Shown: in pieces, positions 214 to 27,498 of the stretch | Layout of the letters: every line of letters begins with the position of its first letter | Numbering within the stretch: the first letter of the stretch is position 1 | From: Bacteroidota bacterium | GTDB lineage: Bacteria > Bacteroidota > Bacteroidia > Chitinophagales > Chitinophagaceae | Direction: 5' to 3' | Assembly (NCBI GenBank): GCA_005883765.1 | Contig: VBAQ01000066.1 | Location: 1-50,631 of the forward strand | Length of the DNA stretch: 50,631 nt | Position numbers and translations under genes: made by a program | The notes under the pieces: model-generated | Seen by the model: the letters and a program-made list of their open reading frames with translations, nothing else | Databases searched by the model: none | Told to the model about the DNA's origin: nothing

Positions 214-960
214 ATGCTTAAAAGAGAACGGCAATCGTTTATTTTACGCCAGGTCAATCTGCATAACAAAGTCCTTTCCTCTGACCTCAGCCAGGAGATG
301 AAGGTTTCAGAGGATACCATTCGCCGCGACCTCAATGAACTTTCTGAGAACGGAAAAATTATCAAGGTACATGGTGGCGCCCTGTCAAAATCTTTTCATC
401 TCTCTCTCAAGAATGCTAATGTCTATTCTCTTGATGAAAAGAAAACCATTGCGCACAAGGCTTCTCAACTCATCAAAGACGAGATGTTTGTTCTCACGAC
501 AGGAGGAACCACGATCATTGAGTTAGCAAAGGCACTCCCTTCCGAATTATCGGCGACGTTTATCACGGTCAGCCTACCTGTCGCATATGAATATATTCAT
601 CATCCCAATATCGAAGTGATATTTATCGGCGATAAGATATCCAAGAGTGCCCAGATATCGATCGGCGGGGAAGCCATATCAAAGATCAGACAGATAAAAG
701 CTGATCTCTGTTTCCTTGGCACCAATGCCATTGATATAAACAATGGGTTAACGGACAGTGATTGGGAAGTAGTGCAGGTAAAAAAAGCCATGATCGAATC
801 ATCAGAAAAAGTTATTTCCCTCGCCATTTCCGAAAAGTTGAACACAACCCAGCGAATAAAAATTTGTGAAGTGAGCGATATCGATGTATTGATAACGGAG
901 ATGGAGCCTTACAATGATCTATTGAAACCATATCATCAAGCAGGCATTGATATTTTATGA
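214..960 (+). CDS. DeoR/GlpR-family transcriptional regulator
   Basis: The 248-residue length is typical of the family. The first 55 residues form a winged helix-turn-helix of the DeoR type, with the recognition segment VSEDTIRRDLNEL followed by GKIIKVHGGAL. The rest is a DeoRC sensor domain, which in this family binds phosphorylated sugars; the TTGGTTI stretch near residue 95 is the usual phosphate-binding loop. Regulators of this family normally repress sugar-use genes until a sugar phosphate accumulates. The next gene on the same strand is a SusC receptor 52 bp away, so control of the SusC/SusD pair is a reasonable inference. The start is the ATG giving the canonical N-terminus; no Shine-Dalgarno sequence is visible. 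Confidence 0.88.
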   Translation: MLKRERQSFILRQVNLHNKVLSSDLSQEMKVSEDTIRRDLNELSENGKIIKVHGGALSKSFHLSLKNANVYSLDEKKTIAHKASQLIKDEMFVLTTGGTTIIELAKALPSELSATFITVSLPVAYEYIHHPNIEVIFIGDKISKSAQISIGGEAISKIRQIKADLCFLGTNAIDINNGLTDSDWEVVQVKKAMIESSEKVISLAISEKLNTTQRIKICEVSDIDVLITEMEPYNDLLKPYHQAGIDIL

Positions 961-1012
961 TCCATGTCATGAACGAAACCAAACATCATTTTCATCATTT
1001 AAAAACTGCTAT

Positions 1013-4000
1013 ATGACCCGAATCAAAAGAATAAGATCATTGAAATGGAAACACATTTCTTTTGTCTTGTTGCTACAACTATACAGCATGTGCCTGTTAG
1101 CGCAGGTAAATATCAGTGGCAAGGTAACGGATGCTGAAGGCAAGGGCCTTCCTGGTATCTCAGTATCGATCGCCAATACGAACTTTATAACGGCAACCGA
1201 TGTGAACGGTACATATACGATGAACGCAAATCTGCGTGCCGGCACTTATACGTTGCAGTTTTCGGGTGTAGGTTACAAAGCAAAATCGCAAACGATCCAG
1301 GTTGCTAACGAATCGTCTTATAAGGCGGATGCCCAATTGGCAGAAGATGTTTTAGGGATGGAGGAAGTCATTGTAACCGGTGTGTCGGCAGGAACAACCC
1401 GGAAGCAATTGGGAAATTATATCAGTACGGTGAAAGCCGATCAGCTCACCAAAGGTGCTACCAGCAATGTGCTGACGGCGTTGCAGGGCAAAACTGCAGG
1501 AGCACAGATCATTCAAAACAATGGTGATCCCGCAGGTGGCGTCTCAGTTCGGTTACGCGGCATCAGTTCTATTTTATCTTCATCAGAACCACTTTACATT
1601 GTTGACGGAGTCATTGTGAACAATGCGACAAACAGGGTTACCAATACTCAAAATTCTTATGATGGGGCAACTTTCGTTGGAACGATTGGACAAAATCGGC
1701 TGGCCGATATTAATCCTGCTGATATTGATCACATAGAAGTATTAAATGGTGCGGCAGCAGCGGCTATTTATGGCTCAAGAGCAAACGCAGGCGTGGTACA
1801 GATTTTTACAAAAAGAGGATTGGGTGGTGCCCCTGTTATAAATTTCTCAACCAGTGTAATGGTAAGTCATCTCCGCAATAAAATAGATGTGAATAAGGCA
1901 CCTACAAAATTTGGTGGCCCGACTGATGGCGTTGGAGCTTTTACGCAGGACATTATCACCCTTGTAGGAACTCCAGCCGCACTGCTTACCAATACTACTC
2001 CTGTTACACGATACGATTACCAGGATTATATTTTTCAAACGGGCATTGGTACCGACAATAATGTTTCAGTAAGTGGCGGCACAGACAAAACAAAATATTA
2101 TCTCTCCGGTTCTTATTACTACAATCAAGGAATTATTAAGAATACTGATTACAGAAGATTTAGTTTCCGGGCAAATATTGATCAGACATTGAATCGCTGG
2201 CTTAGTTTCAGTTTGGGATTAAATTATATTAACAGTGCCTCAAAAGAAAAACCTGATGGCAATTCGTTCTTTTCGCCAATGAATTCCGTTACCATTATTG
2301 GCAATTTTCACGATCTCTGGACGAGAGATGCAAACGGAAATTTAAAAGCGGTTGGTGAAAGAGGTCGTGTCAACCCGGTTTCTGTTATAGAAGATTTTAA
2401 GCAAAGAGAAGAGACCAATCGGCTCATTGCTGCCCTGGGTATGAAATTAAAACCTATCAAAGGATTGACATTTGACTATACACTTGGGATCGATAATTAT
2501 GGGCAGAATGGAACAACGTACATGCCACCATTTGCCTATAATGTAAACACGGCATTTTTTGGCGGCGGTGCTACATTGGATCCCACTCTAAATGGTTATA
2601 CAAGCACTGGTAATGATATTTTCTTCCAGATCAATAATGAATTGAACGGTACTTATCAATTCAATATTACAAGTGACATTGGTTCAACGACACAAATCGG
2701 CTATTCAGTGCAATATGAAAAGAATAAATATGCATTGTTGCAGGGTCGCGGATTAGCACCATTCATTGAAACTATAAACGGGGCAAGCACTCCTTTGCAA
2801 AGTGTAGATGATCGAAGTGAGATTTCTATATCAGGCGCTTATCTTCAACAAAATTTCCGTATCAAAAATAGATTGTTCCTAACCGGTGCGATTCGTTTGG
2901 ACGGTTCTTCTGTTTTTGGCGAGGATCAACGTAACCAGGTTTATTATAAAGCTAGTGGCAGCTATCTTTTATCGGACATTAAATTTTGGCAAAGAAGTAT
3001 GCCGTGGTGGAATACAGCAAAATTACGCATTGCTTACGGTGAATCCGGAAATCTTACGGGTATCGGTGCTTATGATCGCCTCAATACATATAGCAGCAAT
3101 TCATATTTAGGTAGAATTGCTCTGTCGGGTAATACACGCCTTGCGAACGAAAATGTGAAACCTGAAAGGCAAAAAGAACTAGAGGTGGGGACGGATATGT
3201 CATTTTTCAAAGATAGAATCACCGTGCAATTCAATGTATATCATAAACGTGTTGAAGATCTTTTGATCAACAGGCAGATTGCTCCGACAACCGGATATTC
3301 AAGCTTGCTCGATAATTTTGGTTCGCTTGAAAATAATGGTTTTGAAATTGTATTGGGAGGATCGCCCATTGCTAAAAAAGATCTTCAGTGGGATGCAACA
3401 TTAATTTACAACCACAATCGTAATAAAGTATTGGAAGTTGGTCCTGCACTAACTCTCATCAGTACTACAACAGGCGCTCCTGTTGCTCTGCTGGAAGGTT
3501 ATCCAATAGGAGTATTCTACGGAACTTTCTTTGCTGTTGATGCCGGCGGGGCTCTTGTAAAAAATACTTCCGGAATTCCGCAAATAGAAAAAGGAATTCA
3601 GAATTCGGCAGTTTCATACACGCCGCAGCGGGGTGTAAATGGATTACCAACTGGAACTACTTTAAGAAAAGTAATCGGTGATCCCAATCCTGACTATACA
3701 GCTACATTAACTAATGACCTTACCTATAAAAGGTTTGGATTGCATATACAATTGGACGCAGTGCAGGGCGTTGATGTTTTTAATGCAGACTTTAGAACAA
3801 GACAGGGAGTTGGAAATGGTAAGGTAGCGGAACAGGAAGATCTTGGGCAAATACCCCGTGGATATATTCTCGGTGTTTACCAGATTGAGCAATGGCGTGT
3901 TGATGATGGCTCATTTGTAAAGCTTCGTGAAGTATCATTGAGCTATAGCCTTGGAAAATTTAAATTTTTTAAAGACCTCGTGGTAAGTGTGAGTGGCCGC

Positions 4001-4153
4001 AATCTCATTTCATGGGACAATTATAAAGGGTATGACCCCGAAGTAAATTCGGGCGGGCAGAGCACTTTGCTCAGAGGAATTGATTTTGGTTCCGTGCCCA
4101 TCCCCCGAACTTTTAAATTGGGAATTGCCGCTAAACAAAAATCATTGGTATGA
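1013..4153 (+). CDS. SusC/RagA-family TonB-linked outer membrane receptor
   Basis: This is the outer-membrane transporter of a SusCD pair, which imports oligosaccharides or other large nutrients using TonB energy. From the ATG at 1013 it has 1046 residues: a basic N-terminus and signal peptide (about 1-31), a CarboxypepD_reg-like domain (about 33-110), then a TonB-box-like MEEVIVTG segment, the plug, and a large barrel with typical SusC sequences up to the C-terminus. An in-frame start at 947 is possible, but it would overlap the deoR-like gene and place 22 extra residues before the signal peptide, so 1013 is preferred. Its TGA shares four bases with the SusD start. The substrate cannot be read from the sequence; no glycoside hydrolase is adjacent. 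Confidence 0.92.
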   Translation: MTRIKRIRSLKWKHISFVLLLQLYSMCLLAQVNISGKVTDAEGKGLPGISVSIANTNFITATDVNGTYTMNANLRAGTYTLQFSGVGYKAKSQTIQVANESSYKADAQLAEDVLGMEEVIVTGVSAGTTRKQLGNYISTVKADQLTKGATSNVLTALQGKTAGAQIIQNNGDPAGGVSVRLRGISSILSSSEPLYIVDGVIVNNATNRVTNTQNSYDGATFVGTIGQNRLADINPADIDHIEVLNGAAAAAIYGSRANAGVVQIFTKRGLGGAPVINFSTSVMVSHLRNKIDVNKAPTKFGGPTDGVGAFTQDIITLVGTPAALLTNTTPVTRYDYQDYIFQTGIGTDNNVSVSGGTDKTKYYLSGSYYYNQGIIKNTDYRRFSFRANIDQTLNRWLSFSLGLNYINSASKEKPDGNSFFSPMNSVTIIGNFHDLWTRDANGNLKAVGERGRVNPVSVIEDFKQREETNRLIAALGMKLKPIKGLTFDYTLGIDNYGQNGTTYMPPFAYNVNTAFFGGGATLDPTLNGYTSTGNDIFFQINNELNGTYQFNITSDIGSTTQIGYSVQYEKNKYALLQGRGLAPFIETINGASTPLQSVDDRSEISISGAYLQQNFRIKNRLFLTGAIRLDGSSVFGEDQRNQVYYKASGSYLLSDIKFWQRSMPWWNTAKLRIAYGESGNLTGIGAYDRLNTYSSNSYLGRIALSGNTRLANENVKPERQKELEVGTDMSFFKDRITVQFNVYHKRVEDLLINRQIAPTTGYSSLLDNFGSLENNGFEIVLGGSPIAKKDLQWDATLIYNHNRNKVLEVGPALTLISTTTGAPVALLEGYPIGVFYGTFFAVDAGGALVKNTSGIPQIEKGIQNSAVSYTPQRGVNGLPTGTTLRKVIGDPNPDYTATLTNDLTYKRFGLHIQLDAVQGVDVFNADFRTRQGVGNGKVAEQEDLGQIPRGYILGVYQIEQWRVDDGSFVKLREVSLSYSLGKFKFFKDLVVSVSGRNLISWDNYKGYDPEVNSGGQSTLLRGIDFGSVPIPRTFKLGIAAKQKSLV

Positions 4154-5464: not shown

Positions 5465-5496
5465 GGGTTGCCTTTTTTAAGGCAGCCCCTTTTTTT
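5465..5496 (+). terminator. Rho-independent terminator after SusD
   Basis: A 10-bp stem with one G-U pair (GGGTTGCCTT with AAGGCAGCCC, 5465-5488) is followed by a run of seven T at 5490-5496. It closes the SusC/SusD unit. Confidence 0.85.
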
Positions 5497-5573
5497 GCTT
5501 CGTTCTCATCTCTGCAGGACTCATAGGAAGAATTAATGACTCGTATTTCTCCCGTGCAACGATATACTCACTT

Positions 5574-6158
5574 ATGTTGTCAAACGACAACAGGATAATG
5601 GATTACTACAAACTCGTGAAGAATTGCCTGAAAGGGAGACCTGACGCTCAGCGCCAGTTGTATGATCATTTTGCGGATACTATGCTCGGCGTGTGTTATC
5701 GCTACACCAAATCCACTAAGGACGCGGAGGATATTTTGCAGGAAGGCTTTGTAAAAGTTTTTTTTAGCCTGAAACAATATCGCCACGATGGCGAGTTGGG
5801 TGCATGGATCAGGAGAATAATGGTGACGACCGCGTTAAATTTTTTAAAACGCAACCGCAATTATCGTGATCAAATGTATTTTCTGCCGGAGCATTTGCAC
5901 CCAGTGGTCAACGATGGTCCTGTCGTGATGCTGCAGGCAAAAGAACTGGCCGACCTGATCAGGCAATTGCCACCCGGATATCAAACCATTTTTAACCTTC
6001 ATGCTATTGAAGGTTATTCTCATGTAGAAATAGGCGAGCTCCTGGGAATTACCGACGGCACGTCACGTTCACAGTATGCAAGAGCAAGAGCCTTGCTGAT
6101 CAGCTGGCTTCAAAATTATCCTGTCGATAATAAAAAAGAAAATTATGGCAGCAAATGA
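5574..6158 (+). CDS. ECF-type RNA polymerase sigma-70 factor
   Basis: A 194-residue ECF sigma factor. Region 2 covers FADTMLGVCYRYTKSTKDAEDILQ and the following WIRRIMVTTALNFLKR segment. Region 4 covers the stretch around LPPGYQTIFNLHAIEGYSHVEIG and the GTSRSQYARAR recognition helix. An in-frame ATG at 5598 gives the more typical start MDYYKLVKNCLKG and may be the real one. The 3' end overlaps the next gene by 14 bp, the normal arrangement for a sigma factor and its membrane anti-sigma protein. Confidence 0.93.
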   Translation: MLSNDNRIMDYYKLVKNCLKGRPDAQRQLYDHFADTMLGVCYRYTKSTKDAEDILQEGFVKVFFSLKQYRHDGELGAWIRRIMVTTALNFLKRNRNYRDQMYFLPEHLHPVVNDGPVVMLQAKELADLIRQLPPGYQTIFNLHAIEGYSHVEIGELLGITDGTSRSQYARARALLISWLQNYPVDNKKENYGSK

Positions 6159-7617
6159 ATTTGAAAAAAATGTGAGAGGAGTCATGGATGAATTTAAGAT
6201 TCACCCATCGGATGAGGTTTGGCCCAGGGTTGAACAAAGGATCAGGAAGGAAAAGCGAAAAAGGAGGATCATTTTCTTTTTCCTTTTTGCCTGCATTGGC
6301 CTGGCTCTCGGTGGCTATGGAATCTATAATTATTACGGCAGGCAAAATGTGGAGGCGCAGATCGGAACTGCGAAGAACGATCAGAAGATACAAGGCACAA
6401 GAGACAAGGTACAAGGCACAAGTGACAAGGGACAAGGCACAAGTGACAAGGGACAAAGCAACAACACTGAAAATATCAAGAATAAGGACCGGGCTAACGC
6501 AACGAACAAAACAAATATTTCCTCTGTGGTGATTAAATCAAATAGAAACCCAAGTGGTGATAAAAAGGTAGTTCATAAAAACATCTGCAATAAGAGAGTC
6601 AGCCAGGCTGTTGCGAGTATGAATAGAAAGATCACATCACCGCGAACTAACGAGGAACAAAAGGAAAATGATAAGAGAAACATTACAGATCGCATGGACC
6701 GCAAAGATATTTCGGTCGATAAAAACAAATCGGTTGTAGCAGACACCAGCGGCCAAAAACTAACATTCCAACCAACCGAAAAAAATGTTACAGTGAATTT
6801 CGCCGCTGACACCACTGCATTAACAAAGCAAGAAAAGAAAAAAGACGAAGAAATAGTGCCAGGGCAGAAATCAAAAAGCCGCGATCAAAATTTTAGGAAA
6901 TTGAAATGGGTAATAAGTTTTTCGGCGGGCTCATCAACGATTACGCAAGATCGTTTTTCCTTTAAAGGTACTCTTTACGCAAATTCAGCTTCTTATAGCA
7001 CGCCCGGAACTCCGACAGGAGGTGGGCCAGGGGTTTTCTATTCCCCATCACCTAACCGATCTGCCTTCGCTTTTAAAACAGGAGTTAGTCTTGCGAAAGA
7101 TATTTCTCCGCGGAGTAGTCTATCAGTAGGCCTTGCATATAGTGACCTGGGCGATCGGATTCGAATTGGATCAAAGCAAGGTAGCGGCCTGCAGTCAACC
7201 AATTCGTCTAGCCCCGTTTATTATAGCGGCGCCCCGCAAAATACATATGCCGATCATTTCCACTTTATCGAATTGCCGGTGATTTATGAGTGGCGCATCA
7301 ACAAAAATACCAATCGTTATTTTTCATTGAGCGGAGGCGCTTCCACAACCTATCTGCTTTCAACAAATGCACTTGTCTATGATACCACGCTGTCTGGTAT
7401 TTATTATCATAATAAATCTCTATTCACGCGAACCCATTTCAATTTTCTGTCGGGCATATCATACCATTTTACATCGGGAAAAGGGCTTGAACTTAATCTG
7501 GGTCCGAAATTTTCCTTTGACGTCACCAGACTCATAAAGAGCAATCTCGATGAAAGAAAGTATTTTTTGTATAGCGGAGTTGAAGCCCGGATATTTTTTG
7601 AGAGAAAGAAAAGGTAA
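6145..7617 (+). CDS. Anti-sigma-like protein with inner-membrane helix and C-terminal outer-membrane barrel
   Basis: The 490 residues read in order as: a cytoplasmic head (1-41) with the HPSDEVWPRVEQRI motif common in Bacteroidota anti-sigma proteins; one hydrophobic helix (about 42-64); a hydrophilic, Lys/Asn/Thr-rich linker (about 65-250) that holds three 7-residue repeats at 83-103; and a C-terminal region (about 252-490) of alternating beta strands typical of PorT/OMP_b-brl barrels. There is no signal peptide, so the protein appears to cross the inner membrane and insert in the outer membrane. It overlaps the sigma gene by 14 bp. The layout matches the dual-membrane-spanning anti-sigma factors (Dma) reported in Bacteroides. 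The likely role is direct sensing of outer-membrane state, with release of the upstream ECF sigma factor. Confidence 0.8.
   Translation: MAANEFEKNVRGVMDEFKIHPSDEVWPRVEQRIRKEKRKRRIIFFFLFACIGLALGGYGIYNYYGRQNVEAQIGTAKNDQKIQGTRDKVQGTSDKGQGTSDKGQSNNTENIKNKDRANATNKTNISSVVIKSNRNPSGDKKVVHKNICNKRVSQAVASMNRKITSPRTNEEQKENDKRNITDRMDRKDISVDKNKSVVADTSGQKLTFQPTEKNVTVNFAADTTALTKQEKKKDEEIVPGQKSKSRDQNFRKLKWVISFSAGSSTITQDRFSFKGTLYANSASYSTPGTPTGGGPGVFYSPSPNRSAFAFKTGVSLAKDISPRSSLSVGLAYSDLGDRIRIGSKQGSGLQSTNSSSPVYYSGAPQNTYADHFHFIELPVIYEWRINKNTNRYFSLSGGASTTYLLSTNALVYDTTLSGIYYHNKSLFTRTHFNFLSGISYHFTSGKGLELNLGPKFSFDVTRLIKSNLDERKYFLYSGVEARIFFERKKR
6390..6452 (+). repeat. Three tandem 21-bp repeats inside the anti-sigma linker
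   Basis: Three consecutive 21-nt units (6390-6410, 6411-6431, 6432-6452) differ at only a few positions and encode QGT(R/S)DK(V/G). A fourth, degenerate partial copy follows. Because 21 is a multiple of three, copy-number change would alter linker length without breaking the frame. Confidence 0.9.
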
Positions 7618-7665: not shown

Positions 7666-7702
7666 TCAGGCAACGCTTTTTCTTAAATGGTTGTCAGCCT
7701 GA
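7666..7702 (+). other. Imperfect inverted repeat in the leader of the LVIVD gene
   Basis: TCAGGC-AAC at 7666 pairs with GTT and GCCTGA ending at 7702, leaving a four-base bulge. It sits 14 bp before the ATG at 7716 and is followed by a short A run, so it is not a standard terminator. It could be a leader hairpin or an operator half-site pair. Confidence 0.3.
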
Positions 7703-7715
7703 AAAAATAACTGTT

Positions 7716-8951
7716 ATGAAAAAGATTCCTCTTGTTGTGTTTTGCTTCTCAGTATTTATTTTGCAAAGCTGTTTAAAGGATAAACTCACACACACCTATA
7801 CTTTGTTTATTCCTGTATATAAGAGTAAGGACGAAGTATATGCTAATATAAAAAGCAATCCACCCAGGACGATCGAGTCACCGGGCAAAATTTTTCTGTA
7901 TGGTAATTATGTTTTTCTCAACGAAACTGATAAGGGTGTTCACATAATCGACAATAGCGATCCTGCAAAACCGGTTGAAAAAGCTTTCATCGATATTCCG
8001 GGTAACCTCGATATTGCTGTTAAAGGCAATATTTTGTACGCCGATATGTACAAAGACCTTTTGGTCATAGACATTTCAAACCCTTTGCAGGCAAAGTTCT
8101 TAAAGTATGTTCCCAATATTTTTCCCGAACGTTACTATCCAGGTGGATTTATTGCAGACAACAGCAGGATTATCGTCGATTGGATAAAAAAAGACACCAC
8201 TGTTAACCTACTTCAGCCTTCGGGAAATTATATTGTTTATGGTGCTTTCTTACAATCTTCTGTTGGTGCAGTGCCGACCGCAGCTCCGTCGATACCCGGT
8301 ATTTCCGGTTCAATGGCTCGATTCACAATTGTGAATGATCACATATATGCTGTGAACAACCATTCCCTCGAACCCGTTTCAATTGCAAATCCCTCAGAGC
8401 CGATTGCCGGCACTCTAATCAGCGCTGGCTTTGATATTGAAACCATTTATCCATTTAAAAATAAATTGTTTCTTGGATCAATGGAGGGTCTATACATTTA
8501 TGATATTTCCAATCCTGATAATCCTGTGAAAGAAGGAACATTTACACATGCCCGGGCCTGCGATCCCGTAATTGCCGACAACGACTATGCTTATGTAACG
8601 CTGAGAGAAGGCACTAGCTGTGGTCCTACTTCAAATGAACTTGATGTCGTTAGTGTGCAAAATCTTCAATTGCCCTCATTGATAAAAACGTATGCGATGA
8701 CGGGTCCGTATGGATTGGCAAAAGATAACAATTTGCTTTTTGTCTGCGATGGGAAGGACGGGTTAAAAATGTATGACGCTACCAACCCCCCAAATATCAT
8801 TTTGAAGAAGCATGTCATAGGACTCGAAACTTATGACGCCATTGCCTGGAACAGAAATCTGATTGTTGTGGCAAAAGACGGATTGTACCAATTCGATTAC
8901 AGCGATCCAAATGATCTAATTCAAAGAAGCAAACTAACTGTTAACCGTTAA
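7716..8951 (+). CDS. LVIVD-repeat lipoprotein
   Basis: A 411-residue lipoprotein. The signal ends in FILQSC with Cys19 as the lipidation site. The body repeats a pattern of beta-propeller blades: the GVHIIDNSDPAKPV, DLLVIDISNPLQAK, GLYIYDISNPDNPV and GLKMYDATNPPNI segments are LVIVD repeats, found in surface or periplasmic propellers. It lies 98 bp after the barrel-type anti-sigma gene and 9 bp before the next small exported protein, on the same strand. No enzymatic motif is visible; a binding or scaffold role at the outer membrane is likely. Confidence 0.82.
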   Translation: MKKIPLVVFCFSVFILQSCLKDKLTHTYTLFIPVYKSKDEVYANIKSNPPRTIESPGKIFLYGNYVFLNETDKGVHIIDNSDPAKPVEKAFIDIPGNLDIAVKGNILYADMYKDLLVIDISNPLQAKFLKYVPNIFPERYYPGGFIADNSRIIVDWIKKDTTVNLLQPSGNYIVYGAFLQSSVGAVPTAAPSIPGISGSMARFTIVNDHIYAVNNHSLEPVSIANPSEPIAGTLISAGFDIETIYPFKNKLFLGSMEGLYIYDISNPDNPVKEGTFTHARACDPVIADNDYAYVTLREGTSCGPTSNELDVVSVQNLQLPSLIKTYAMTGPYGLAKDNNLLFVCDGKDGLKMYDATNPPNIILKKHVIGLETYDAIAWNRNLIVVAKDGLYQFDYSDPNDLIQRSKLTVNR

Positions 8952-8960
8952 AGCCAGTAT

Positions 8961-9539
8961 ATGAAACTAATTTTTGCAATTGCGGTCTTGTGTATGGCCA
9001 TATCGGGTAACGCCCAGAGTAAGATTACTTTTTCCTCGCAAAATTATGTCGGGTTACTTGAAGGCGAACAAGGATCAAAATTTCAGTTACAGACCATCAA
9101 TGGAATGAGAAATCGAACCTGGTTTGTTGGATTGGGAACAGGCATCGATTGGTATTATCGAAGAAGCATACCTGCATTCCTATCTGTGAATAAAGACTTC
9201 TTTCGAAGAGGCAATAGAAATTTTTTTATAGCAACGGATGCCGGCATCAACTTCCCATGGCGTGACGATAAAAATTATAACGTGTGGGGATATGTCGTTG
9301 AGAAATCGATTCCGGGTTTTTACGGCGAAGCTGGGCTCGGATACAAGGTAGGAATCGGGAAGACAAATGATGCCGTTTTGATTCAACTCGCATATAGTTA
9401 TAAGCATATCCGTGAAAAAGTCAAAAACATCTATTATTACCCGGGTATCATGATTGTGAGCCTTCAGCCGGAAGTTGTAACCGACCGTTTCGATTACTAC
9501 TTGCGAAGGTTGTCATTAAAACTCGGATGGAATTTTTAA
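8961..9539 (+). CDS. Small exported beta-rich protein of unknown function
   Basis: 192 residues with a clear signal peptide ending near GNAQ (residue 19). The mature part has short alternating strands with aromatic ends ([36 protein letters not shown], the final [14 protein letters not shown]), which suggests a small outer-membrane barrel. It starts 9 bp after the LVIVD lipoprotein stop, so the two are almost certainly co-transcribed. The last 24 bp overlap the 3' end of the convergent queG gene. No family is recognised with certainty. Confidence 0.7.
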
Positions 9540-19592: not shown

Positions 19593-20999
19593 TTAGTAGT
19601 GCAATTTTATTTCCGTTCTTTGATTCTTAGCACGGCCTGCTGCTGTCTTTGTATCAGCAATTGGCTGTTCTCCACCAAAGCCTGTTGCTTCAACCTGGCT
19701 ATCTTTCACGCCTTTGCTAACAAGATAACTCTTGACAGCATCAGCACGATTCTGACTGAGTGTCTTTGCTGCGTCACCCGTCGTGCTTGTGTGAACTGAA
19801 ATAGTAACCTTTAAGTTTGAATCTGCCACAAGCATATTGGCTACCTGGTCAAGGGCTTTGTTCGACCTGCTTGACAAAGTATATCCCGTCGAAGTGCTCC
19901 ATGAAACACCCTTCGCCATCATGTCAACCTTACTTTGAGTACTTGCATCTATTTCGGGACAACCATGATTAGCTGCTGTACCTGCTAGATGAGGACAATT
20001 ATCTTCTTCATCGTTGATGCCATCGTTGTCGGAATCTGGAATAGGACAACCCTGGTAACGCTCAACACCTGGTACGGTTGGACATTTGTCGTTGTCATCG
20101 TTAATTCCATCTCCATCTGTATCCGGTACAGGACAACCGTTGTATTTGGCTACACCTGGCACTGTCGGACATTTGTCATTGTCGTCGTTGATACCATCTC
20201 CATCGGTATCGGGCACTGGACAACCATTGTACTTAGCAACTCCTGGAGTGTTTGGACATTTATCCTGGTCATCTGGAATTCCATCGCCATCTGAGTCGAG
20301 CACAGCAGGAACTTCCGGAGTCGTGACCGCTACCGCTTTTTGTTTCCCACCAAACAAGCGGAAGTTCAATGTGGCCTGAACTCCACTGTTGTGAAGCTTG
20401 CCAGCAGCGAGGGTCTGACCATAAGCCGAATTAGAAGTTTCCATCAGGTTGCTCAATCCCTGCATATATCTTACGGTAACAGACACGGGAGAATTGGCCA
20501 TCAACTGTATTCCACCCGTAAGTGCGAAATCGAACTTTTTAAAATTGTCTTTGTTGTCGGTCGTATTATCATTCTGGTCCTTGATCTTTGCCCCAACAAG
20601 AAAATCAAATTGTGGTCCAACCAGGAAGGCAAAATGACTGCCTGCATTTATTTTCAAAGGAACAGGAATAGAAATGTATCCCAGCTTTTGAGTTAGCTTA
20701 GCACTGTGGCTACCTAACGTATCAGTATAAGAATAACTAAACTTGCTGCCCATTTGGGAGAAAAGTAAACTGGGCTGAAGGGATACACTATTACTAAACG
20801 GGAAATTCAGATAAAATCCTCCGACGCCGCCCCATTTCCATTTCCAATCATAATTGTAGCCAGTCGCTGCATCGCTCGATTTCAAATAAGAATAGTTGCC
20901 GCCGGCTGATATTCCACCTGAAACACCGTTAGTTTGCGCGAGAACTGTTGCTGCCACGAACACGCTTATAGTAAGCAACAGGAGTGTTTTTCTTTTCAT
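19593..20999 (-). CDS. OmpA-family protein with N-terminal barrel and thrombospondin type 3 repeats
   Basis: 468 residues: signal peptide (1-21, ending VLAQ), an eight-strand-like beta-barrel of PorT/OMP_b-brl type (about 25-215), four 29-residue TSP3 calcium-binding repeats (235-350, DxDGDGIxDDxDKCP pattern with paired cysteines), and a C-terminal OmpA peptidoglycan-binding domain (about 360-468, ending with NQRTEIKLHY). It anchors the outer membrane to peptidoglycan, with the TSP3 rod bridging the two. Its own terminator lies downstream. The intergenic region upstream (21000-21465) is unusually long and should hold its promoter. Confidence 0.93.
   Translation of the reverse strand: MKRKTLLLLTISVFVAATVLAQTNGVSGGISAGGNYSYLKSSDAATGYNYDWKWKWGGVGGFYLNFPFSNSVSLQPSLLFSQMGSKFSYSYTDTLGSHSAKLTQKLGYISIPVPLKINAGSHFAFLVGPQFDFLVGAKIKDQNDNTTDNKDNFKKFDFALTGGIQLMANSPVSVTVRYMQGLSNLMETSNSAYGQTLAAGKLHNSGVQATLNFRLFGGKQKAVAVTTPEVPAVLDSDGDGIPDDQDKCPNTPGVAKYNGCPVPDTDGDGINDDNDKCPTVPGVAKYNGCPVPDTDGDGINDDNDKCPTVPGVERYQGCPIPDSDNDGINDEEDNCPHLAGTAANHGCPEIDASTQSKVDMMAKGVSWSTSTGYTLSSRSNKALDQVANMLVADSNLKVTISVHTSTTGDAAKTLSQNRADAVKSYLVSKGVKDSQVEATGFGGEQPIADTKTAAGRAKNQRTEIKLHY
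19950..20297 (-). repeat. Four tandem 87-bp units encoding TSP3 repeats
   Basis: Residues 235-350 divide into four units of exactly 29 residues (4 x 87 bp = 348 bp). The middle two units are nearly identical at protein level, and similar at DNA level, which suggests recent duplication or gene conversion. Confidence 0.85.
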
Positions 21000-26919: not shown

Positions 26920-27498
26920 TCATCTCTTAGGTTGCTTCAGTTTTTGCTCGATCATTATTCGTAGATTTCTTTTCCCATTTTGAATATAACTCTTCACCTG
27001 CATCATCGTAAATCCGGTTTTTTCGCTTATTTGCTGGTAGCTGTTCTTTTGAAGATAGAACAAAGTTACACATTGTTGCTGCTCCGGTGATAACTCCTTA
27101 AGCGCTTCAGCCATGTGTTCAATAGCATCATCACTTTGAAGCAAGCTTTCAGTCTCCCCGGGTTCATCAGTTGTTGACAGGTACCGTTCTGTCAGCTCTA
27201 CAGGCATTTTTCCATGGGTATCCCTTATTTTCATAAGGCAGTGATTTTTTGCCACCATGTATATCCACGATTTGAAATAATCAACCCGGTATTTTTTTAA
27301 TTCCGTAATGGCCTTTAAAAAAATTTGTTGTACACAATCTTTTGCTTCTTCTTCATTTTTTAAATATTTCATGCACACCCCCAGCAGCAGCAAGGTGTAT
27401 CGCGGCAATAGGATACCAAGCCACTCAGGATCATGGTCTGAATAAAACTGTTCAAGCAGTTGCTGATCCGTTAGATGTCTATACTTATCCGGGTTCAC
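26920..27498 (-). CDS. ECF-type RNA polymerase sigma-70 factor
   Basis: 192 residues with region 2 (TLLLLGVCMKYLKNEEEAKDCVQQIFLKA, then FKSWIYMVAKNHCLMKIR) and region 4 (LSPEQQQCVTLFYLQKNSYQQISEKTGFTMMQVKSYIQNGKRNL). It is the first gene of a two-gene unit with the small anti-sigma-like protein. It is distinct from the sigma factor at 5574 (different region 4 recognition helix), so the window holds two independent ECF systems. Confidence 0.92.
   Translation of the reverse strand: MNPDKYRHLTDQQLLEQFYSDHDPEWLGILLPRYTLLLLGVCMKYLKNEEEAKDCVQQIFLKAITELKKYRVDYFKSWIYMVAKNHCLMKIRDTHGKMPVELTERYLSTTDEPGETESLLQSDDAIEHMAEALKELSPEQQQCVTLFYLQKNSYQQISEKTGFTMMQVKSYIQNGKRNLRIMIEQKLKQPKR

Follow-up and report, generated by a model that had tools for sequence, protein, structure and literature searches.

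How a disturbance at the outer membrane could reach a sigma factor directly, through one polypeptide, is the question raised by a pair of overlapping genes in a 50,631-nt stretch of DNA from a Chitinophagaceae bacterium, which was analysed as a whole and is hereafter called the window. The preliminary description of the locus had read the pair as an ECF sigma factor coupled to an anti-sigma protein that ends in an outer-membrane barrel. The features discussed below are collected in Table 1.

Table 1. Features of the sigma/anti-sigma locus and of its predicted target operon (window positions; residue numbers refer to the anti-sigma protein).
Feature	Position	Strand	Size, motif or basis
Terminator-like hairpin between SusC/SusD-like genes and sigma operon	5465..5488	+	10-bp stem, T run; pattern scan
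Predicted promoter of the sigma/anti-sigma operon	5555..5582	+	TGCAACG-N15-TTGTCA, exact match
ECF sigma factor gene (probable start)	5598..6158	+	186 aa; Pfam and alignment of 29 orthologues, 60-70% identity
Dma-type anti-sigma gene	6145..7617	+	490 aa; Pfam, orthologues, model, structural matches
Sigma/anti-sigma gene overlap, 14 nt	6145..6158	+	Exactly 14 nt in 25/28 orthologous loci, 11 nt in 3
Cytoplasmic head, residues 1-40 (putative)	6145..6264	+	Motif N-x-FEKQV...PS..VW..VE; conservation and model
Inner-membrane helix, residues 42-60	6268..6324	+	Hydropathy in orthologues; helix in model
Disordered tether, residues 65-252	6337..6900	+	pLDDT below 50; length conserved across 29 orthologues
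7-nt (21-nt) tandem repeat within tether coding sequence	6390..6460	+	Absent in orthologous genes
Outer-membrane barrel domain, residues 253-486, eight strands	6901..7602	+	Pfam PF13568, model, OmpA/NspA/OmpW matches
Second predicted promoter of the same type, before LVIVD lipoprotein gene	7669..7696	+	GGCAACG-N15-TTGTCA
LVIVD-repeat (propeller-type) lipoprotein, predicted sigma target	7716..8951	+	Pfam LVIVD 4.8e-13; mature start C-LKDK
192-aa exported barrel protein, second gene of predicted target operon	8961..9539	+	Model, neighbourhood

The product of the upstream gene contains the two Pfam domains Sigma70_r2 (9.5e-14) and Sigma70_r4_2 (3.2e-15). Its start had been listed at 5574, a position that falls within the conserved promoter described below and adds first residues that are unmatched in most orthologues; we therefore moved it to 5598 (ATGGATTAC), probably the true start as judged from the alignment. 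Of the 39 sigma factors placed in a tree, those linked to a barrel all group with a few barrel-less relatives in a clade with a support of 0.99, and the other ECF factors of the same genome and of Bacteroides faecis fall outside it. This clade contains both the window sigma and the B. faecis orthologue of Das2, which share 34% identity. The latter was recognised through its DUF4943-DUF4858-nitronate monooxygenase operon, which is the published dma2 operon, and Das2 itself has been termed a putative ECF21 (PMC13088901). A second ECF-type sigma of the window, at 26920-27498 on the minus strand, is distant (E 2.8e-7 to the sigma profile) and lies outside the clade.

The anti-sigma protein was modelled by AlphaFold2 with 30 orthologues. 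Structure prediction of the C-terminal region, one of the checks named in the preliminary description, returned a confident barrel of eight long strands between residues 253 and 486, most of them at pLDDT above 90, with low confidence at 274-292. The same region matches OMP_b-brl_2 with an E-value of 2.3e-8; the match passes the family cut-off, and this is the sole Pfam domain detected in the protein. The top structural match was the membrane domain of OmpA (Z 15.8, rmsd 3.5, 169 aligned residues), and NspA, OmpW and PagL were also retrieved. The product of the gene that overlaps the sigma gene is thus predicted to end in a barrel, as proposed. Another barrel match in the window, at 20442-20939 on the minus strand in a 490-residue open frame, was rejected as a candidate: it belongs to a protein of the usual OmpA form, in which the barrel is N-terminal.

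Ahead of the barrel, the predicted organisation agrees with that first described, namely one inner-membrane helix, no signal peptide and a linker of about 185 residues. The helix has a mean hydropathy of 2.31, follows a Lys/Arg-rich stretch (residues 33-41) and occupies an identical position in every aligned orthologue with a complete N terminus. Because it holds this position behind a charged head of 41 residues in the complete orthologues, we conclude that the protein has no cleavable N-terminal signal peptide. The tether measures 188 aa, of which 17% are hydrophobic, and the model leaves residues 67-244 without structure, at pLDDT below 50. Its coding sequence includes about ten 7-nt units ACAAGGN that form a 21-nt super-repeat; one unit more or less would change the reading frame and so remove the barrel from the product. 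Other parts of the genome (L002, L007) have repeats of this family, and the orthologous anti-sigma genes have none.

At the N terminus, the model places helices at residues 5-16 and 25-65, and the alignment and the model together point to a conserved, two-helix head of 40 residues as the putative sigma-binding element. None of the known anti-sigma models matched the head in the Pfam search, since it is too short and diverges too far from them. NCBIfam yielded no model for the anti-sigma protein, and a profile search with its alignment against solved structures gave meaningless matches only. Class I anti-sigma domains comprise roughly 100 residues, and the heads of the CnrY type (class II) have about 40 residues in two helical segments, as here, a likeness of size only (PMC7406223). 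CnrY-like proteins hold their sigma at two places, regions 4 and 2, with a separate helix for each (PMC7406223), and by analogy the short two-segment head would fit such a hold. Since no more than about 6% of the ECF factors in Bacteroidetes have a class I anti-sigma neighbour (PMC7406223), short heads of this sort may fill part of the gap.

The pair is not unique: of 147 genomes from the same family, 62 hold a relative, with the sigma gene directly upstream in all 28 orthologous loci that had enough flanking sequence. The anti-sigma orthologues share 23-35% protein identity, yet keep the architecture, the gene order and the 14-nt overlap, and judged from this persistence the pair is more than a chance arrangement. 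Mean pairwise identity amounts to 46% in the head, 13.5% in the linker and 26% in the barrel, and the linker spans 185 ± 25 aa in 29 orthologues. Head and barrel appear to be constrained, and the tether would be a spacer whose length counts more than its sequence; a length kept without sequence is as expected of a spacer.

An initial scan of the contigs of the genome with the single protein gave no match. The genome contains at least three further barrel pairs (C73, C276 and C295), so that four per genome are possible. On contig C400 (L169, C400:10500-15500, reverse strand 1799-3299), the partner of another sigma from this clade is a barrel-less protein of 318 residues with three tandem head motifs PP..W..I..AL and one transmembrane helix. 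In other families of the class, two loci (L079, L081) likewise have a sigma of this clade, next to an anti-sigma of about 250-260 residues that consists of head and helix and has no barrel, which suggests that the barrel is a module gained or lost. A phylum-wide search gave fewer matches in distant families; as only three candidates per distant-family genome were scored, it is no census.

The likeness to the Dma type of Bacteroides, put forward in the preliminary description, is upheld by the domain order, the helix, the tether, the predicted barrel, the upstream sigma gene and the clade shared with the Das2 orthologue. The last of these places the pair within the known Dma/Reo kind. In Bacteroides thetaiotaomicron, Dma1/Das1 and Dma2/Das2 also combine a head, a helix, a long disordered tether and a C-terminal barrel with an upstream ECF sigma gene (PMC13088901). 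Profile comparison relates the Dma2-type barrel region to that of the window protein (probability 97.7%, E 1.8e-12), whereas the Dma2-type head gave no alignment to the window head. The downstream genes also differ: DUF4943, DUF4858 and nitronate monooxygenase genes in the Das2 operon, but an LVIVD lipoprotein gene and a barrel gene in the window. A second known system, EcfO-Reo of Bacteroides fragilis and Phocaeicola vulgatus, is alike by description: a large anti-sigma protein extends through the periplasm to a barrel in the outer membrane. Reo, the partner of EcfO, is a protein of the same kind in Phocaeicola and Bacteroides; transposon insertions in it turn the regulon on, toxins harmful to the envelope, a BamA inhibitor among them, induce the system, the EcfO regulon includes NigD surface lipoproteins, and Reo has been proposed to be an outer-membrane stress sensor (PMC9308784, PMC13114119).

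In B. faecis, the best four matches to the sigma profile were two sigma genes with a helix-tether-barrel partner and two sigma-barrel fusions. The two fusions of this one genome (L164, L165) are single chains of 551 and 554 residues that run from sigma through helix and tether to barrel. The literature names one such fusion in B. thetaiotaomicron, Dma3. Fusions of the Dma3 type share the sigma clade, helix, tether and barrel with the window pair, but join in one chain what is encoded here by two overlapping genes.

Conservation among the loci also pointed to a promoter. The sequence preceding the window sigma start is TGCAACGATATACTCACTTATGTTGTCA, and all 28 loci (the window and 27 orthologous ones) have its core, GCA(A/G)CG-N15-NNGTCA, with unchanged spacing and 13-21 nt upstream of the start codon. 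The distance from AAC to GTC is 18 nt, which agrees with known ECF promoters such as the Escherichia coli sigma-E consensus. Only two exact matches to the core GCAACG-N14-GTTGTC occur in the 50-kb window, at 5556-5581 and 7670-7695; matches to sigma-70-type promoters in the region stayed at chance level. A pair TGCAGC ... GTCT that looks related by eye, with a spacing one base below that of the window promoter, lies upstream of the Das2 orthologue (L162, 1888) and of the C73 sigma gene (L179, 2593).

The second match precedes the LVIVD gene. Among 20 neighbourhoods, this gene comes immediately after the anti-sigma gene in 9, and the small barrel gene adjoins in 8. The promoter was found before the LVIVD gene in most of these neighbourhoods, several orthologous loci among them, and in five further genomes. 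The small barrel gene encodes the 192-aa protein, whose model shows eight long strands in addition to a signal helix (mean pLDDT 84; OmpA/OmpW/NspA-like).

The association of promoter and pair was quantified by counting the exact 28-mer pattern in 144 genomes of the family, with the reversed pattern as control. The 62 genomes that have the pair gave 132 sites and the 82 that lack it gave 29 (12 versus 5 for the control), and at least one site was present in 48/62 and 19/82 genomes, respectively (Fisher p 7e-11). Forty sites, chosen by hand, were then read. In thirteen cases no start codon followed at a distance of 8-60 nt; the other 27 and one site of the organism's own genome gave 28 readable targets with an ATG frame at this distance, and the products of all 28 have an export signal. 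A strict lipobox rule was satisfied by 21/28 targets versus 17/281 background open reading frames (p 1e-16), the background rate allowing any internal Met because over-extended starts mask signal peptides. Judged by eye, about 24 of the 28 are lipoproteins, and 23/24 read C-x-K at the mature end versus 5/12 background lipoproteins. This end resembles, as far as the predicted mature sequences tell, the surface-export signal C-X-K-(D/E)2-X (PMC5080379).

Sites with one mismatch in the organism's own genome numbered 7 versus 6 in the reversed control; as they do not exceed it, we propose a single site only as that of a third target, CGCAACG-N15-TTGTCA at C224:25463-25490 (L204), 17 nt before the gene of a cysteine-rich lipoprotein of about 96-99 residues. 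This gene would be the only plausible target in the genome outside the window cluster. Where the preliminary description had given the targets as unknown, the analysis thus offers a predicted promoter together with a predicted regulon composed mostly of lipoproteins. The conserved promoter and the predicted target set appear to be new here.

The architecture, its conservation, the promoter, the association of promoter and pair and the nature of the downstream genes were all computed. Taken with the known systems, they make it probable, in our assessment, that the two genes form an outer-membrane stress switch of the Dma/Reo kind that induces surface lipoproteins. In the scheme we propose, the head would hold sigma inactive at the inner membrane, the helix and tether would cross the periplasm, and the barrel would reside in the outer membrane. 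A disturbance of the outer membrane or of barrel assembly would inactivate the anti-sigma protein, most likely by proteolysis in the periplasm first and then in the membrane, and so free sigma. Sigma binding, the location in both membranes, the stimulus and the proteolysis are the parts of this scheme that we infer. The genome has site-2 protease genes, which are no evidence for the last step since every control genome has them too. Freed sigma would transcribe its own operon in a positive feedback and, from promoters of the same type, a small number of genes for surface lipoproteins and for barrel proteins, those of the LVIVD protein and the neighbouring barrel first. The output would be the step with the best support and the input that with the least, on whose side Reo/EcfO may be adduced by analogy; the EcfO regulon, with its NigD genes, contains surface lipoproteins as do the predicted targets of the window. 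Effects may exceed the direct targets, since dma2 in Bacteroides acts on polysaccharide loci too (PMC13088901). A narrower version, which we put forward tentatively and would not yet favour, makes the barrel itself the sensor: failure of its own assembly would expose the chain to proteases and free sigma. The reasoning is that one end depends on the assembly machinery for its folding into the outer membrane and the other end, at the same time, holds sigma.

Other readings of the locus differ in what releases sigma and in whether the chain spans the envelope. The barrel could be the receptor for a particular outside ligand, whose binding, and not damage, would release sigma, perhaps with the LVIVD protein as a lid and the neighbouring barrel as a partner. 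The linkage of the LVIVD and small barrel genes in about half of the neighbourhoods, the variable barrel loops (with the stretch at 274-292 modelled at low confidence) and the possible four pairs per genome, which suggest different inputs, would suit such a receptor. We nevertheless regard it as unlikely: the two genes do not adjoin in the other half of the orthologous loci, the pore of an eight-stranded barrel is narrow, and both genes stand under sigma's own promoter, which makes them outputs at least as much as inputs. Less likely again is a precursor that is cut in its tether to give a separate inner-membrane anti-sigma protein and a free barrel, without any chain across the envelope. The tether is indeed long, disordered and unconserved, and the relatives with the same head and helix but no barrel indicate that the head can work alone; against this stand the fusion of head and barrel in every complete-frame member of the window's group, the constant length of the tether and the B. 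faecis single chain that holds sigma, helix, tether and barrel together.

The genes just upstream bring in a third reading, in which the SusC-like receptor (947-4153) would be the transducer of a nutrient signal as in FecI/FecR systems. SusC/SusD-like genes are close by, and SusD-like genes lie within about 5 kb at several orthologous loci, but SusC does not adjoin the pair in most of them. A terminator-like hairpin also parts the Sus genes from the sigma operon, weak evidence alone as the scan found 6 such hairpins versus 4.3 expected. In addition, the window sigma lies outside the clade that contains the FecR-linked sigma of B. faecis. Pfam finds no FecR domain in the anti-sigma protein and reports CarbopepD_reg and Plug domains for the SusC-like neighbour, without an N-terminal STN domain. 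Signalling through the SusC neighbour was rejected on the absence of these two domains, and we hold it to be highly improbable.

With the outer-membrane stress switch as the preferred reading, the locus extends a mode of regulation, direct outer-membrane-to-sigma coupling through one polypeptide, that is known so far from few gut Bacteroidales, in which work on its stimulus and direct targets is still under way. The Dma/Reo kind is widespread beyond the gut Bacteroidales, with up to four pairs per genome. Sequence conservation alone yielded a defined promoter and, within 4 kb, a minimal circuit of two promoters. Surface lipoproteins would be its direct output, a prediction that agrees with the control of NigD genes by EcfO. 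If the barrel is the sensor, the anti-sigma protein would be a built-in test client of outer-membrane assembly and the surface lipoproteins would be the response. The promoter and the predicted targets make the job of the switch testable.
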